Below, one piece after another: positions 14,768 to 22,542 of a stretch of DNA of 22,542 nucleotides. Made by a program: the position numbers and the translations under genes. Source of the DNA: a bacterium (lineage in GTDB: Bacteria > T1Sed10-126); assembly GCA_003557545.1 (NCBI GenBank), contig PWOD01000197.1, positions 1-22,542 of the forward strand. Reading direction: 5' to 3'. How positions within the stretch are numbered: position 1 is the stretch's first letter; every line of letters starts with the position of its first letter. A model generated the notes under the pieces. The model was not told where the DNA came from, searched no databases, and was given only the letters and a program-made list of their open reading frames with translations.

Positions 14768-16069
14768 CTAAGGGGCGGCTAACTGATCCAGCGCATAGCG
14801 AGCATAGTCATTGCCAGGTTCGATCTCCAGTACCCTTTCAAACCACTCTATCGCCGCCTCAAAATTACCCTGTCGCTGTCGGGTCACACCGAGCCAGTTT
14901 AAGTTGTTCGTATCCTCGGGAAAATATTCATAACCCTCCAGAAATATTTCATAGGCCAGCCCATAATTACCGGCTTCAAACTGTTCAACAGCCTCGGCCC
15001 GGCGACTTTCCCAATCATAAATCTCTTCCTCTGGCTCCTCGACCTCATCAACTTCAACCATCACCGGCGGTGCCACATCGGCCACCGGCCGTTCAGGAGT
15101 TCCTAACCGGTAGTTAAAAGCCACCTGATGCAGATCACCAAAAACACCATAGGGAATATATGCATAATCAAGCCCAATATTTTCCCCGAAAGCAAAACCG
15201 AAACCGGCCGTTAAACCATTATCGATATCACCAAGATTACCATCATAACCAAGCCGCAGAGCGACCTCATCAGTTAGATCATATTCCATCCCCAACTTTA
15301 ATCCCAACTCGCTGCTGTTGATTAAATATTCAAAATCAAGGTGGGTCCGAAGGGCAACATCAAGCAACGTATAAAAATCTACTGTAACCCCGCCACGGGT
15401 AAGAAAGGGTAGATCTTCACTACGATCACCAAACTCAATTCCGGGGCCGAAATTTGCCGCCATTATCCCCAGCGATATCGGCAGATCCGGATTGGGAGAA
15501 TGGTATTGAAATCCCAGATCAAGCGCCCGACCGTTAGCAGTTGTTCCATCAATATTAAGATGGATCAATTTTACTGAAGCACCCCAGGCCCAGCTGCCAA
15601 TCCGCTCCCCATAGCCTACCGTTCCAACCAGATCAAAATCACTGAACTTGCCGGTTTTAACCAGCTGTTTATTAATCAACTCCATCCGGTCCAGAGAACC
15701 ATAACTTAAGTATCTCAGTCCCCCGCCCAATCTTCCCCTCACAAGATTATGATTATAATCCAGGTTGCCATAACCAATGTCCTCGACAATCTGTTGATAG
15801 GTAAACTTCAGGTCCCGCTGCGGTCCATAAGCCAATCCAGCCGGATTATAATGGAGAGAAGGGGCACCACTAACGGAGGCAACCCCCGCCCCACCCATGG
15901 CCGGATGAATAGCTCCAGAACCAAACAACAGCACTTCGGCCGCAGTCTGCCCTGCATCTCCAGCAGCCAGCGGTAAAACAGTTAACAGGCAGAAGCCGAT
16001 CACTGCAACAACCACAGTTATTTTTTGGCAAACCTCTGATACGTCCTTAATAAATTGATTTAATCCCAT
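14768..16069 (-). CDS. PorV/PorQ-like outer-membrane barrel protein with C-terminal TPRs
   Basis: A 433-residue protein. A signal peptide (hydrophobic residues about 18-34, cleavage near LAA|GDAG) is followed by a barrel-like region rich in alternating Gly/aromatic strands (about 50-330). It opens with GSGAIHPAMGGAGVASV and HYNPAGLAY, the hallmark of the PorV/PorQ (UPF0164) family. An acidic linker (about 335-350) leads to two TPR-like units, ending FERVLEIEPGNDYARYALDQL. PorV is an outer-membrane shuttle of the type IX secretion system; this homologue may act in surface export or anchoring, but no other T9SS gene is visible. Its ATG lies inside the end of the upstream surface-protein gene (ATGGGATTAA, 10-base overlap), so the two are probably translated in coupling. 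The TPR extension is not part of classic PorV. Confidence 0.82.
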   Translation of the reverse strand: MGLNQFIKDVSEVCQKITVVVAVIGFCLLTVLPLAAGDAGQTAAEVLLFGSGAIHPAMGGAGVASVSGAPSLHYNPAGLAYGPQRDLKFTYQQIVEDIGYGNLDYNHNLVRGRLGGGLRYLSYGSLDRMELINKQLVKTGKFSDFDLVGTVGYGERIGSWAWGASVKLIHLNIDGTTANGRALDLGFQYHSPNPDLPISLGIMAANFGPGIEFGDRSEDLPFLTRGGVTVDFYTLLDVALRTHLDFEYLINSSELGLKLGMEYDLTDEVALRLGYDGNLGDIDNGLTAGFGFAFGENIGLDYAYIPYGVFGDLHQVAFNYRLGTPERPVADVAPPVMVEVDEVEEPEEEIYDWESRRAEAVEQFEAGNYGLAYEIFLEGYEYFPEDTNNLNWLGVTRQRQGNFEAAIEWFERVLEIEPGNDYARYALDQLAAP

Positions 16070-19000
16070 CGTATTATTGCCAACCTCCCGGTTTTACTCT
16101 GTCCGGTTGAGCGTTCTTCAACAGAGTATAAGTAATAACCACTGTTAACTAAATCGCCTGAATTATTTCTTGTATCCCATCGATATCTTATATCACCGGT
16201 ACTGGTACTGTAGACCAGTCTTCCAGCTATACTGTATATTTTTATTTTAAACGGTCCGGGCTCCCTTGAATCAAAATGAAACCAGATACCATCAGAACCG
16301 GTACCCGGTTTGCCATCATCCGGTCTAAACGGATTAGGACCAACCGACAGATCCGACAGACCGGGAGCACCTTCAGCAAAAGTTGCCACAAGCTGTTTGT
16401 CAGAATTGAGGTAAATCTCCAGAGTTTCAGTCTCCCCGGTAAAATCCCCTGTCCAACCTTCAAATCTTAAGAAACCCACCGGAACTGCTTCAACCAGTAC
16501 CGTTTCACCGGCAGTCAATGAAAGCGGATTCTGGTATTTATCCCCATCCACCAGAACCTCTCCGGTACCCTGAATATCAATACTGAGCAGATAACTCTGT
16601 CGATCAAACACCGCCAGAATCTGTTTGTCATCTTCTACATATATTTCACGCTGGCGAACCGTTCCGCTCAAAGCCCCCCCCCAGCCCACAAAATTCCAGT
16701 AGTCCTGTTCCACTATCTCAAGTTTAACAGTATCACCGGCCTCCACATAGACCGGATCATAATACAGATCATTATCAACCAGGACAAACCCCTCACCCAC
16801 AACGGTCACCGTTAACTTTTTCATATCCCTCCCAAATACAGCACTGACCTGTTTATCTGACCTCATAAACAGCTCGACCAACGTATCGCTCCCGGAGAGC
16901 GCCATCCCCCACTCATGAAAAAACCAGTATTCGTCAGGAACAGCCTTCAACAGGGCTGTTTCACCACCGGTTAATTCGACCGGCGTCTGATAGGTTTCCC
17001 CATTAACCAGAACCTGCCCCTCACCGGTAATTCCAACTGTCAGAAGATAAGTATCCCGAACAAAAACAGCTGTCACCTCTTTATCATCGTCAAAAAACAA
17101 CTGTTCTGTTAGAGCGGTACTGCTCAAATCCCCCTCCCATCTGACAAAATGATAAAACTCAGCCGGTTCAACCTCCAGAGCGGCCGTCTCGCCTCCCTTG
17201 ATCACAACCGGGTCAATATACGAATCACCATCCACCCTGATAAGTCCTTCACCACGTCGATTAACTGTCAAAATATGTGTATCCTGCTGGAAAAGCAGTT
17301 CGACGAATTTATCCTCGTCAATGAATAAATCCTTGACCAGCTCACTACCCGAGAGTTCTCCTCCCCAGCTCTTAAAATGCCAGAACTGATCAGCAACAGC
17401 TTCCAGCTCTACCGTATCGCCGGCAATCACCACCATGGGATCCTGGTAAACTGTACCATCCACCTCGAGCTGACCGGCTCCAACAAAATCTGCAGTTAGT
17501 ATATAGGTGTCCCGTTCAAATATTGCAGAAATATTTTTTTCTGAATCTACCATTATTTCGGCTGTTTTATCGGTACTGGTCAGATCCCCTTCCCAATGAG
17601 AAAAATGATAAAACCGATCAGAAATAGCCTCAAGACTGATTGTCTCCCCTCCCAGTACCTCGACCGGTGCAAGATAACTATCACCATCCACCAGAACTGT
17701 TCCACCACCCTGGATATCTATATTAACCAGATGAGTGTCCTGCTGGAACCATGCGTTGACCTGCCGGTCATCCGGAAAAAACAGCTCCTTTTCCATCTCT
17801 ACCCCGGAAAGATCACCTGTCCATCCAGTAAAATGCCAGAACTCTGCCGGTTGAGCCGTCAGAGTCCGGGTTTCCCCACCATTCACAACCAGCGGGCCCG
17901 TATAGGTATCACCATCCACCAGAACATCTCCTTCACCGAAAATATCCACGGTTAATATATGGGTGTCCGGTTGAAAAACAGCCTCGATAACCTTATCTGA
18001 ATCAATAAACACCTGGTTTAGAGGATCATCGCCACTGAGATCCCCACCCCAGCGTTTAAACTGCCAGAAATCATCTGGCTCGGCCTCCAGTTCAATTGTA
18101 TCTCCAGCAATCAGTTCCAGGGGATCGGTATATTGCAAAAAACCTTCCAGAAATACCCGGCCATCACCAATAATATCGATCGTTAATAGATATGTATCCT
18201 CTTCAAAGTTGGCCGAGAGATTAAAATCCCGATCAACCAAAAAAACTATTTCCGTATCAGTTCCGGTGATATCCCCGGTCCATTCCTGAAAATGCCAGAA
18301 TTCAGCTGCTTCAGCGATTAAAGATATGGTCTCCCCACCCTCAACCACAAAAGGATCGATGCCGATTACAGTCCCCTGGCCGACCATAACATCACCATTG
18401 CCGTTGATGGTAAGATTTATCGTATGGGTATCACGCTGAAAAACTGCTGTCACCTCACGATCATCATCAACAAACAACTGCTGCACCGTTTCACCACCGG
18501 TCAAATCTCCTTCCCAGCGAGCAAAATGGTAATATGGCTCAGGAACTGCTTCCAGCGTGACAGTCTCACCAGAATCAATTACCTGTGGACCAGTATAGGT
18601 AATTCCATCCACCTCAACCGTCCCCTCCTCCACAATATTAACTGTCAGAACCTCAGTATCACGCTTAAAATTAGCAGTAATTAATTTATTTGAATCAACA
18701 TATAAATTTTCTGTCAACTGAGCTCCGGTCAGATCCCCTTCCCAGACATCAAAACTATTATACTGGTCGGGAATAGCCTCAAGCTGGATTGTCTCTCCGG
18801 CAACAATAGTAACTGGAGCGGTGTATGGAACACCATCCAGCCAAACAGCTCCTTCCCCTTCAATATCTATCTCTACAGTATATTCAATTTCAGAAAAAAC
18901 TGCTGTTATATCCTTATTGGCATCGATTAAAACTGTTTCATTTAACGCATCACCGGTCAGATCTCCGGTCCATTCCTCAAGCTCCCAGTACTGATCCGGA

Positions 19001-20451
19001 ACAGCTTCCAGGGTAACATTATCTCCTCCGGTAAAAGTTAAGGGGTCAACATAGCTGGAACCATTAACCAGGACATCCCCCTGGCCTACTATGTCAACTG
19101 TTAAAATAAATGTATCAACAAAGGTGGCAGTTACTTGCTGATTATGATCAACAAATAAAGTTTCAACCGGCTGAACTCCACTGAGTGCTTCCCCCCACTC
19201 TAAAAACCGCCAGTAAGTGTCAGGTAGAGCCTCGAGGGTTGCATCCTCATTAGCCGGCACCAGAACCTCCTCCGGAGCCTGGGCCGCAGTCACCAGGGTA
19301 TCACCATTTACCAGCACCGCCCCTTCTCCAACAATATCAATCGTCAATGTAAGATGGGTAACCGGGACCACCCAGACCGTAGGACCCTCCGATAGATAGG
19401 GATAACCATCATTTTTATCCTCCCCGGTACCATCAATATCCCAGCCGGCATTCAGATAATTATCGATATCCTGCATCTGCCCGGTAGTACGACCCTGGCC
19501 ACCGTCACTACCGGTCATACCAGAACTGTTAACGTCCCAAAAACTGTTATTAACATCACGGATATTATCTCCAACCAATCCTCCAACATTAGAATTACCG
19601 ATTACTTCGCCAGTAGAAAAGCTATTATTAATAACATCTCGATTGTAGCCAACAAGCCCTCCCACCCTGTCATCACCAGTTACATAACCCCGAGCGTAAG
19701 AATTAAAAATTAATCCAAAATTATACCCGGTAAGCCCCCCGTTACGACTCCCATTTGCATCTACATCAACATCAGCAAATGATCTCAAAATCATCGCCGG
19801 CCCCATATTTCTGCCGGTTAATCCCCCGGCATAGCTACGTCCATCACCATCCGCCCCGGCAGTTAATATGCCTTTAGCATAAGCATCTTCAATTGTTCCA
19901 TAGTTGATTCCCGCCAGCCCACCAACCCGATGGCCACCCACAATCACCCCGGTGGCATAAGAGTTTTCCACCACCGCATCACGCTCAATCATTCCCACCA
20001 ACCCACCGACAAAGGTATCCCCGGTAACTGTGATATTGCCCACACCAAGATTTTTAATCATCCCCGGATCATCAAGCAAGCCAAACAAACCCACATGTGA
20101 AGCCCCCGGGCGATCGATATAAACGTCAGATATTGTATAGTTTTGACCATCAAATACCGCAGTACAGGGCACATCATCATCACCTAAAGGAAGCCATCCC
20201 ATGCCACCATCAGCCGCTGAACTGGCCACATCAGCCCAGCCAAAACTATTTTGATCAAGTGAGTTTTCTAATCGATAATAAGCTCCAAGGTCAAGTCGCA
20301 CAGCATCCAGGTGATGCCAGTGCTCAATTCTGTAGGGATCAGTTTCTGTCCCGTCACCATCCCCCGGAAAGGCCAGAGCCCTCCCACAGGGAAAGCTGCC
20401 GAGAATTACAACAATTAAAATCAAATGTATCCATCTGATTTTGATCTGCAT
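16060..20451 (-). CDS. Large exported GLUG and InlB-type-repeat surface protein with FlgD-like C-terminus
   Basis: A 1463-residue secreted protein. Its signal peptide ends near ALA|FPG. An N-terminal beta-solenoid part (to about residue 365) contains GLUG-type units (VGGLVGYN, RNGGLTGYN and others) preceded by a domain starting GDGTETDPYRIEHWHHLDAV. Thirteen tandem repeats of 75-82 residues follow, each with the pattern GEGxVxVxG, GETVxLEAxP, FWHFxxWxGDLSG and DDKxVTAVF of the divergent InlB B-repeat (PF18998-like) family. A 102-residue C-terminal domain (VGPNPFRP, SIAGRLVY, SGYYLYSV, IIRWD) resembles FlgD-Ig/T9SS type-A-like sorting domains. It is strongly acidic. Adhesion or cell-wall/polymer binding is inferred. 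ATG 20451, with AAGGGTGG 5 bases upstream, is preferred over a GTG at 20460. It overlaps the PorV-like gene by 10 bases. Confidence 0.88.
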   Translation of the reverse strand: MQIKIRWIHLILIVVILGSFPCGRALAFPGDGDGTETDPYRIEHWHHLDAVRLDLGAYYRLENSLDQNSFGWADVASSAADGGMGWLPLGDDDVPCTAVFDGQNYTISDVYIDRPGASHVGLFGLLDDPGMIKNLGVGNITVTGDTFVGGLVGMIERDAVVENSYATGVIVGGHRVGGLAGINYGTIEDAYAKGILTAGADGDGRSYAGGLTGRNMGPAMILRSFADVDVDANGSRNGGLTGYNFGLIFNSYARGYVTGDDRVGGLVGYNRDVINNSFSTGEVIGNSNVGGLVGDNIRDVNNSFWDVNSSGMTGSDGGQGRTTGQMQDIDNYLNAGWDIDGTGEDKNDGYPYLSEGPTVWVVPVTHLTLTIDIVGEGAVLVNGDTLVTAAQAPEEVLVPANEDATLEALPDTYWRFLEWGEALSGVQPVETLFVDHNQQVTATFVDTFILTVDIVGQGDVLVNGSSYVDPLTFTGGDNVTLEAVPDQYWELEEWTGDLTGDALNETVLIDANKDITAVFSEIEYTVEIDIEGEGAVWLDGVPYTAPVTIVAGETIQLEAIPDQYNSFDVWEGDLTGAQLTENLYVDSNKLITANFKRDTEVLTVNIVEEGTVEVDGITYTGPQVIDSGETVTLEAVPEPYYHFARWEGDLTGGETVQQLFVDDDREVTAVFQRDTHTINLTINGNGDVMVGQGTVIGIDPFVVEGGETISLIAEAAEFWHFQEWTGDITGTDTEIVFLVDRDFNLSANFEEDTYLLTIDIIGDGRVFLEGFLQYTDPLELIAGDTIELEAEPDDFWQFKRWGGDLSGDDPLNQVFIDSDKVIEAVFQPDTHILTVDIFGEGDVLVDGDTYTGPLVVNGGETRTLTAQPAEFWHFTGWTGDLSGVEMEKELFFPDDRQVNAWFQQDTHLVNIDIQGGGTVLVDGDSYLAPVEVLGGETISLEAISDRFYHFSHWEGDLTSTDKTAEIMVDSEKNISAIFERDTYILTADFVGAGQLEVDGTVYQDPMVVIAGDTVELEAVADQFWHFKSWGGELSGSELVKDLFIDEDKFVELLFQQDTHILTVNRRGEGLIRVDGDSYIDPVVIKGGETAALEVEPAEFYHFVRWEGDLSSTALTEQLFFDDDKEVTAVFVRDTYLLTVGITGEGQVLVNGETYQTPVELTGGETALLKAVPDEYWFFHEWGMALSGSDTLVELFMRSDKQVSAVFGRDMKKLTVTVVGEGFVLVDNDLYYDPVYVEAGDTVKLEIVEQDYWNFVGWGGALSGTVRQREIYVEDDKQILAVFDRQSYLLSIDIQGTGEVLVDGDKYQNPLSLTAGETVLVEAVPVGFLRFEGWTGDFTGETETLEIYLNSDKQLVATFAEGAPGLSDLSVGPNPFRPDDGKPGTGSDGIWFHFDSREPGPFKIKIYSIAGRLVYSTSTGDIRYRWDTRNNSGDLVNSGYYLYSVEERSTGQSKTGRLAIIRWD
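16369..19356 (-). repeat. Thirteen tandem repeats of about 228 bp coding for InlB-type units
   Basis: Within the surface-protein gene the protein repeats have lengths 82, 75, 76, 76, 78, 77 and then seven of 76 residues. They are diverged in DNA but not fully: a 19-base sequence at 17679-17697 recurs exactly one unit (228 bp) away at 17907-17925. No frameshift breaks the array. Confidence 0.85.
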
Positions 20452-20851: not shown

Positions 20852-22542
20852 TTAGCGAATAATTGTCACCGTAGAACTGCTCACCCGACCGTTACCCTCT
20901 ATCAGGTATATGTAGGTGCCGGATGCCACTCGGGGTTCCCAACTGGCCAGCCGGCTGTTTGTTTCAACCGCAAGGTTCCGGCTAACTATCTCACGTCCGT
21001 TCAACGTATAGACCGTCAACCGCACACGGTTACCAAAATTTTCCGGGACTAAAAAGCTCAGCTCATCGCTCTTATCAGCTCGATAAGGATTGGGATAAGA
21101 AAAGACTTCGCCCGACAGACCCAGCCCATCAGCTGCGGCCTGCAGGTTTAAGAAATACTCGTCGGTGATCTGCCAGACAGCCCCGGTCTCTTCCCCGGTT
21201 TCCCAGCTCAAGAAGGGATACCCTTGATTATGCAGCTCATCCGCCGCTGCAATATTCCAGCCGGCATCCAGATAGGGGAAAATACCCTGCATTTTATCGG
21301 CTGACATACCTACACCACCATGACTTATATCCTGACCGGTCGTCTTAATATTCCAGAAACTGTCCTCCACATTACCCTGATGATTATCACCGGCCAGCCC
21401 ACCGGTCTGATGCTCACCCCGCACCTCACCCATGGCATAGCTCTGTCTGATTAATCCCCGGTTGTTTCCAACTAAACCTCCAGTTCGATGATCAAAACCT
21501 CTAACTGCAGCCCGGGAATAACTCTCCAGCACCCGACCGTCAAGGTTTTCTCCAACTACCCCGCCGACATTATTACCGGCGCCGACTATCTGACCGTCAA
21601 CGACCACCCGACCAATAACACCTTCAACATTCCAACCGGCAACTCCACCAACCTGACCACCTTCACCGGTAACATATCCGTCAAACGAACTATTCAGAAT
21701 ATTGCCGCCAACCTGGCGACCTACCAGGCCACCAACTCTGTAATCCCCGGCGATGTCACCCTCAACCTGCAGATTGCTTAATTCGCCCGAACTATGGCCG
21801 GCTACGGCACCAACAAACCAGCCGCCTGCCAGATCGATCTGAACAGTTAAATGCTCAACAACTGAAGCTTCCAGGTGACCAACCACGCCACCGATAAACC
21901 GATCCTTACCCGACACCGCACCACTAACCTCAACACGCTCTATGCTTCCTCCCGCCAGCCGGCCAAACAGCGCACCAGCAGCTTCCCGGGCATCAATAGC
22001 CACATTTTCCAGCTGTAGATTGTTAACTGACGCACCATACCCACCTGCACCAAACAGTCCTGCTTCACTTGCTTCCAGGCGATCTATCTGCAGCTCAATT
22101 ATGCTGTATCCATCCCCCTCGAGAGTTCCAGTAAAGGGCTGATCAAGATCACCCAACGGCTGCCAGCCCTGCCCCTGGTTGGCGGCCGGGCCGGCCTGAT
22201 CGGCATATCCTTCGACAGCAGGAGACAGATCATTCAACAGCCGATAGTTAGCATCTAACACCCGGCTGACCTCCTGCAGCTGGTGCCAGTCGGACAGTTC
22301 ATAAGGTTCCTCTACGGTTCCCCAGCCACCAGCCAGATTTAGCACCTTGATAACAGTAGTATCGGCATCATCCTCACCGGTTATTTTAACCTCAGCACCA
22401 TCCTCGACCAGCACCGGCGTATAAATATACTCTACAGTCACAGTACTCTTAGGTCCAATTTCTACATCCAACATATCAGCCAGCATTCCATCAACAGTCA
22501 GATCAAGCCGCTGAATAGCCGAATAATCTCCCAGATTTTCCA
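20852..22542 (-). CDS. GLUG-repeat surface protein with FlgD-like C-terminus (5' partial)
   Basis: The frame is open to the right edge, so the true start lies outside the window and the internal ATG at 22486 should not be taken as the start. 562 C-terminal residues are visible. An acidic Ig-like or connecting part comes first. Next is the domain GGWGTVEEPYELSDWHQL, paralogous to the start of the neighbouring surface protein, and GLUG-type beta-solenoid units (FIGGVVGHL, VGGLVGRQ, TGGLVGNN, TGGLAGDN). A C-terminal domain of about 90 residues has YPNPYRADKSDELSF, TVYTLNGREIVS, ASGTYIYLIEG and a final TIIR, as in FlgD-Ig/T9SS-like sorting domains. It is likely exported and surface-exposed; the ligand is unknown. 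It shares orientation and architecture with the large repeat protein downstream but lacks the InlB-type repeats in the visible part. Confidence 0.85.
   Translation of the reverse strand, partial: ENLGDYSAIQRLDLTVDGMLADMLDVEIGPKSTVTVEYIYTPVLVEDGAEVKITGEDDADTTVIKVLNLAGGWGTVEEPYELSDWHQLQEVSRVLDANYRLLNDLSPAVEGYADQAGPAANQGQGWQPLGDLDQPFTGTLEGDGYSIIELQIDRLEASEAGLFGAGGYGASVNNLQLENVAIDAREAAGALFGRLAGGSIERVEVSGAVSGKDRFIGGVVGHLEASVVEHLTVQIDLAGGWFVGAVAGHSSGELSNLQVEGDIAGDYRVGGLVGRQVGGNILNSSFDGYVTGEGGQVGGVAGWNVEGVIGRVVVDGQIVGAGNNVGGVVGENLDGRVLESYSRAAVRGFDHRTGGLVGNNRGLIRQSYAMGEVRGEHQTGGLAGDNHQGNVEDSFWNIKTTGQDISHGGVGMSADKMQGIFPYLDAGWNIAAADELHNQGYPFLSWETGEETGAVWQITDEYFLNLQAAADGLGLSGEVFSYPNPYRADKSDELSFLVPENFGNRVRLTVYTLNGREIVSRNLAVETNSRLASWEPRVASGTYIYLIEGNGRVSSSTVTIIR

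Follow-up and report, generated by a model that had tools for sequence, protein, structure and literature searches.

Why would a bacterium encode a large surface protein and a membrane barrel in overlapping genes, and does the barrel serve the protein encoded just before it? This question is raised by a 22,542-nucleotide stretch of DNA (hereafter the window; assembly GCA_003557545.1, contig PWOD01000197.1, positions 1 to 22,542 of the forward strand) that carries a cargo gene (16060..20451) and a barrel gene (14768..16069), both, like all features of the window described below, on the minus strand. The cargo ends in a domain of the kind that directs proteins through the type IX secretion system (T9SS), which is usually described as confined to the Bacteroidota and closely related bacteria and as relying on a single PorV for every type A cargo. 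The source lineage, T1Sed10-126, corresponds to Candidatus Busufiota, a phylum represented by two genomes (2.15-2.2 Mb) recovered from the sediment of hypersaline soda lakes (PMC11382960). A preliminary description of the window had proposed that the two genes are translationally coupled and that a PorV-like barrel with a tetratricopeptide repeat (TPR) extension serves its neighbor. Here, we arrive at a similar reading, to which we assign a probability of roughly two in three: the genes would form one of several dedicated pairs of a C-terminal domain (CTD) and a barrel that work like PorZ-PorQ and SprB-SprF, with the barrel taking its neighbor's tail from SprA and keeping it on the cell surface.

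A PorZ-type tail encoded next to a PorV/PorQ-family barrel

The cargo gene encodes a predicted secreted surface protein of 1,463 amino acids, with a signal peptide (MQIKIRWIHLILIVVILGSFPCGRALA, 20371..20451, recognized by eye from the translation), a GLUG-motif region (approximate limits 19552..20100; Pfam Glug, 3.7e-14), an array of divergent InlB B-repeats (approximate limits 16405..19353; Pfam Flg_new_2, 8.9e-82, 10 stretches), and a C-terminal T9SS-type sorting domain (16063..16404). The model of this last domain (mean predicted local distance difference test [pLDDT] score of 89.2) is a seven-strand sandwich, the fold of the PorZ, PorU, and NucA CTDs. Its best solved match was the PorZ CTD (Foldseek 3.5e-7; Z 12.4 at 34% identity, with a root mean square deviation [rmsd] of 2.3 over 92 residues); next in order came PorU, mirolase, and the NucA domain in the structure of the SprA-PorV complex. 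At the sequence level, a profile of the tails found PorZ at 1.8e-14 and PorU at 3e-6, and the cargo tail stayed below the cut-offs of both the T9SS type A CTD model TIGR04183 (20.7 bits at 16096-16284, cut-off 23) and the CHU_C model (22.7, cut-off 27). This end of the protein had been called FlgD-like. FlgD does occur in these match lists, though as a more remote resemblance, and T9SS CTD is the better label.

The product of the barrel gene (433 amino acids) scored 155.5 bits against the NCBIfam PorV/PorQ family NF033709 (cut-off 90) and remained below the cut-offs of the PorV equivalog NF033710 (56.7 bits, cut-off 250) and the PorQ equivalog NF033711 (100.5 bits, cut-off 220). The PorQ model scored higher than the PorV model in 6/6 class I barrels of this genome, and the PorP/SprF family was absent from this barrel's NCBIfam matches at E values up to 0.01. 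The structure model (pLDDT 89.6) comprises a 14-stranded FadL/PorV-type barrel (residues 45-325, 15095..15937), a disordered acidic linker (residues 329-348, 15026..15085, pLDDT under 50), and a helical C-terminal TPR domain (residues 353-431, 14777..15013, with Pfam TPR_2 above its cut-off). PorV in the SprA complex (6h3i) was the closest fold (Z 33.9, rmsd 3.3, 287 residues), with the FadL-type channels CymD, TodX, and FadL below it (Z up to 29.8), and a profile search with the barrel reached PorV at 3.9e-39 versus TodX at 1.1e-8. Both the PorV-like identity and the TPR fusion of the preliminary description are borne out by these results.

Because the predicted barrel has 14 strands and a periplasmic N-terminus, as in the FadL/PorV topology, the TPR domain should face the periplasm, where it could act like the TPR parts of PorE or SprE near the barrel. 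In those lipoproteins, the TPR module likewise lies on the periplasmic side of the barrel (PMC9143113, PMC10994853), whereas here it is fused to the barrel itself and no peptidoglycan-binding domain was seen. The fusion occurred in only 6/128 barrels, all in the two genomes of this phylum, and the idea of the TPR as a general barrel feature was rejected on that count.

The ATG of the barrel gene is nested in the end of the cargo gene, as had been noticed before, within a 10-nucleotide overlap (ATGGGATTAA, 16060..16069; a spacing of -10). This start is credible because the paralogous pair C119 has an equivalent nested start (ATGGGAATAA) from which a clean signal peptide is read. In the paralogous pairs C53, C77, and C198, the overlap is the four-base ATGA. 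Since the cargos of C53 and C77 end in IIR followed by the stop, whereas those of this window and C119 end in IIRWD and ILRWE, respectively, the ten-base overlap looks like an ATGA overlap whose TGA stop turned into TGG. Translational coupling of cargo and barrel is plausible.

Recurrence of the pair

In this genome, at least eight PorV-type genes have a readable upstream neighbor, and 8/8 of them directly follow a gene with a T9SS-type tail, at gaps of -11 to +23 nucleotides. Six of these are close (this barrel and five paralogues with 48-70% identity to it), and two are distant (C198 and C153). Tail genes occupy about 33 places in the 2.15 Mb of this genome, and yet every one of the eight barrels follows one, which excludes chance adjacency. 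Relatives elsewhere were retrieved by a scan with an alignment; a scan with the single protein retrieved none. The same arrangement was found for 10/11 PorV-type genes of the sister genome (isolate T1Sed10_126, contig PWHN01000074.1), the only other genome of the family, for 70/108 in 18 further genomes sharing only the domain (leaving out one row cut by a contig end), and on 48/79 named contigs from other phyla (Hydrogenedentota, Elusimicrobia, Aerophobetes, Lindowbacteria, WOR-3, and others), the comparison rows having been chosen by similarity to this barrel, so that these counts are not unbiased survey rates.

The bodies of the cargos vary between pairs, with GLUG motifs plus InlB repeats, InlB repeats only, immunoglobulin-like domains, or no known domain, and the feature conserved in the partner is the T9SS-type tail. 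The preliminary description had named, as grounds for rejecting its reading, a pair unique to this genome or a protein without a predicted barrel fold; the pair recurs beyond this genome and the barrel fold is predicted, so that the reading was not refuted.

Several loci around and beyond the pairs deserve mention. In the window, a second GLUG protein (20852..22540, cut by the contig end) lies 391 bases upstream of the pair; it has its own divergent Por_Secre tail, belonging to a second, more distant class (class II) in this genome, and no barrel of its own. A further GLUG protein begins just downstream of the C119 pair and runs off its contig (L015:1-564), so that GLUG genes cluster around pairs. 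Three class II tail genes stand in a row, with no barrel, on another contig of this genome (G000 C80, L027:2487-10077). FadL-like barrel genes of about 550 amino acids were seen with no adjoining tail gene in this genome (C164, L115:4023-5654) and in G001 (C99, L113:4875-8486), where two are close together. In Endomicrobia-like loci (Elusimicrobia relatives; L130, L132, L134, L135, L139, L143, and others), no tail gene was detectable upstream of the PorV-type genes, for which another conserved context may exist.

Co-divergence of tails and barrels

Within genomes, distances between barrels correlate with distances between the adjacent tails (r = 0.60 over 75 pairs), a value reached by 0/2000 within-genome shuffles. 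In this genome, the correlation was r = 0.89; in two genomes, it was weak or negative. At the level of the sequences compared, this shows tail and barrel traveling as a unit; co-divergence by itself is no proof of binding. Given that the pair recurs, that tail and barrel co-diverge, and that a PorZ-type CTD is paired with a PorV/PorQ-family barrel, the earlier suggestion that the barrel serves its neighbor is most likely correct.

Secretion machinery, sortase status, and gene overlap

The preliminary description had placed the pair outside a full T9SS locus. This has to be corrected in that some T9SS machinery is probably encoded in this genome: divergent SprA-like sequence is present at the ends of contigs C23 (L078:77-3088) and C86 (L079:7270-9369), with scores of 59.6 and 24.7 bits, respectively (cut-off 200). 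Since the two fragments match adjoining parts of one 1,826-amino-acid reading frame in G029, they probably represent one gene broken by assembly. They had no match among PDB sequences and none in Pfam. Across genomes, SprA-like matches were found in 21/23 with PorV-type genes versus 0/12 without; the sister genome is one of the two misses, and a contig-end fragment there matches the SprA-like protein of this genome. No PorU was found in the source genome: the best match to the PorU model NF033707 (E = 3.4e-8) was not over the cut-off, and strong matches were obtained in 10 comparison genomes. The C25 peptidase domain PF01364 had no match in this genome and none in the controls either, so the absence of PorU rests on NF033707. 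Of the PorK-N/GldK-N motor and ring, no part was found in a search that covered GldM, whose model matched in none of the 22 genomes, including those bearing PorU, and is uninformative.

The sortase status of a genome is related to how the pairs are arranged. Pairing was found in 52/67 cases in genomes without a full PorU versus 36/60 in genomes with PorU or a long PorU-like match (p = 0.04), where G072 is counted as being without a full PorU but has a C25-domain match and is not protease-free. The difference is far larger for start-stop overlap of the paired genes, which occurs in 35/52 pairs in genomes without a full PorU versus 4/36 in PorU genomes (p = 1e-7). In the former, other same-strand neighbors at the same loci overlap in 20/75 cases (p = 9e-6), so that pairs overlap 2.5 times as often as their local background (67% versus 27%); in PorU genomes, pairs and other same-strand neighbors do not differ (4/36 versus 5/44, p = 1.0). 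PorU absence as the only cause of pairing was therefore rejected, with pairing seen in 36/60 cases in PorU genomes and the strong skew limited to the start-stop overlap. In G066 (C14) and G055 (C79), a PorU gene is directly followed by a PorV-family barrel gene, and PorU-PorV itself thus fits the same gene order, with a cargo tail and then a barrel.

A proposed cargo-carrier unit

The mechanism proposed here draws on several known steps of type IX secretion. With loops that extend into the SprA pore, PorV binds the CTD and brings it to the outside (PMC10994853); PorZ is held on the surface by PorQ, and without PorU, uncleaved cargo accumulates on PorV (PMC5562754); SprB-type (type B) CTD proteins remain bound to a PorP/SprF barrel (PMC9143113), and their secretion needs the SprF-like barrel encoded downstream (PMC12618676). 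By analogy, the two genes of the window would encode a cargo and its dedicated carrier within a secretion route resembling type IX. After passage of the cargo through Sec into the periplasm, its C-terminal sandwich domain would fold there and be threaded into the SprA-like pore. The PorV/PorQ-family barrel encoded with the cargo would then pick up the CTD at the pore and pull it out sideways, and the cargo would be kept at the cell surface with its CTD still bound to that barrel. Because no PorU was found that could cleave the CTD and thereby release the barrel, a separate supply of barrel would be required for each major cargo, and this supply would come from the overlapping order of the genes. 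Tethering of the barrel to the translocon or to cell-wall parts may fall to the periplasmic TPR domain.

A barrel that acts as a one-for-one consumable anchor for lack of a sortase would fit the overlap data. A broader version of this idea is that sortase-less type IX secretion is widespread outside the Bacteroidota, with a SprA-like pore, no PorU, and for each cargo its own PorV/PorQ-type barrel, consumed one for one as a lasting surface anchor, and that PorU-PorV, PorZ-PorQ, and SprB-SprF are specialized descendants of such pairs; we offer this only tentatively and consider it rather doubtful as it stands.

Alternative explanations

Four observations weigh against dedicated pairs, or at least against the role given to the missing sortase. 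Co-divergence of tail and barrel is also expected if gene pairs simply duplicate as units. Pairing is common with PorU too, so the lack of a sortase alone does not explain it. The absence of PorU is provisional, this being a metagenome-assembled genome (92% complete, 239 contigs) in which a PorU gene may have been lost in assembly or may have diverged too far to be recognized. Finally, this genome has 19 class I tails, the class of this cargo, of which 6 have a barrel and 13 do not; 9 of these 13 are nearest to this cargo's tail, and about 10 class II tails have no adjoining barrel either. Strict one-to-one use of cargo and barrel is unlikely given the 13 class I tails without a barrel, and as a candidate it was not upheld. 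This weakens the one-cargo, one-barrel use and the stoichiometric production of the preliminary description, and with nine orphan tails nearest to its cargo's own, this barrel may serve several cargos. The orphan tails are also what an interchangeable set of PorV-like carriers for any T9SS-type tail would leave behind, with adjacency only keeping carrier supply in step with the cargo genes and an unknown enzyme afterwards freeing or attaching the cargo. Such sharing has precedents in Flavobacterium johnsoniae, where the SprF-like barrel Fjoh_1677 is shared by three orphan type B cargos and a single PorV by all those of type A (PMC12618676). However, a general carrier would hardly call for at least eight barrels rather than one, each beside its own cargo, or for barrels and tails that co-diverge within genomes, and we consider this explanation unlikely.

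Two further accounts would do away with export by the barrel altogether. The FadL-like fold (with its Z of up to 29.8) would suit a channel for small-molecule uptake, for which a surface cargo with adhesin-like GLUG and InlB repeats that could bind ligands would capture the substrate. Yet the best structural and profile match of the barrel is PorV rather than FadL or TodX, and what is conserved in the partner is the secretion tail while the supposedly ligand-binding bodies differ; an uptake unit is accordingly very improbable. The overlap could also reflect nothing more than a compacted genome in which a unit of two genes was duplicated, with no functional partnership, since 27% of other same-strand neighbors overlap as well in genomes without a full PorU. 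Against such plain packing stand the excess of overlap in the pairs over that local background and the recurrence of these two families, in an unchanged order and with cargo bodies unrelated to one another, across many phyla, and we give it hardly any credence. Dedicated, though not strictly exclusive, pairs of a CTD and a barrel remain the reading we prefer.

Relation to known systems

A close counterpart of the arrangement is PorZ-PorQ (along with PorU-PorV) in the attachment complex of Porphyromonas gingivalis, in which a protein that retains its CTD uncleaved is kept at the surface by a barrel of the PorV/PorQ family (PMC5562754, PMC10202324). The likeness extends to the cargo tail, nearest to the PorZ CTD, and to the barrel, with its preference for the PorQ over the PorV model. 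In contrast to that system, the window's cargo is an adhesin-like protein with GLUG and InlB repeats rather than a beta-propeller or a sortase, at least eight pairs occur in one genome, the barrel carries a TPR extension and falls below both the PorQ and the PorV cut-offs, and no PorU was found. In the type B CTD systems (SprB-SprF, PG1035-PorP), the barrel gene lies directly downstream of the cargo gene, as here, the cognate barrel is needed for secretion, the cargo stays bound, and orphan cargos share a barrel (PMC12618676, PMC9143113); however, the barrel of the window belongs to the PorV/PorQ family, the tail of the cargo is nearer to the CTDs of PorZ and PorU, and the organism lies outside the Bacteroidota. 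The SprA-PorV translocon of F. johnsoniae resembles the present case in barrel fold and in the presence of an SprA-like protein, but there a single general PorV handles every type A cargo (PMC12618676), whereas several cargo-linked barrels accompany a divergent SprA here.

The preliminary description had called the arrangement little-described. For gene order this does not hold, as paired genes and cognate shuttles are already known for type B CTDs with PorP/SprF in the Bacteroidota (PMC12618676). In a literature search that covered few subscription journals, we found no description, outside the Bacteroidota, of PorV/PorQ-family barrels whose genes are individually paired with those of type-A-like CTD cargos.

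PorV/PorQ-type barrels paired with CTD cargos thus occur in Candidatus Busufiota, Hydrogenedentota, Elusimicrobia, Aerophobetes, and others, alongside divergent SprA-like pores. The pairs form a natural set of putatively cognate CTDs and barrels, which offers a way to work out how CTDs are recognized, and they provide a testable account of how bacteria without a PorU sortase could retain exported proteins on their surface.

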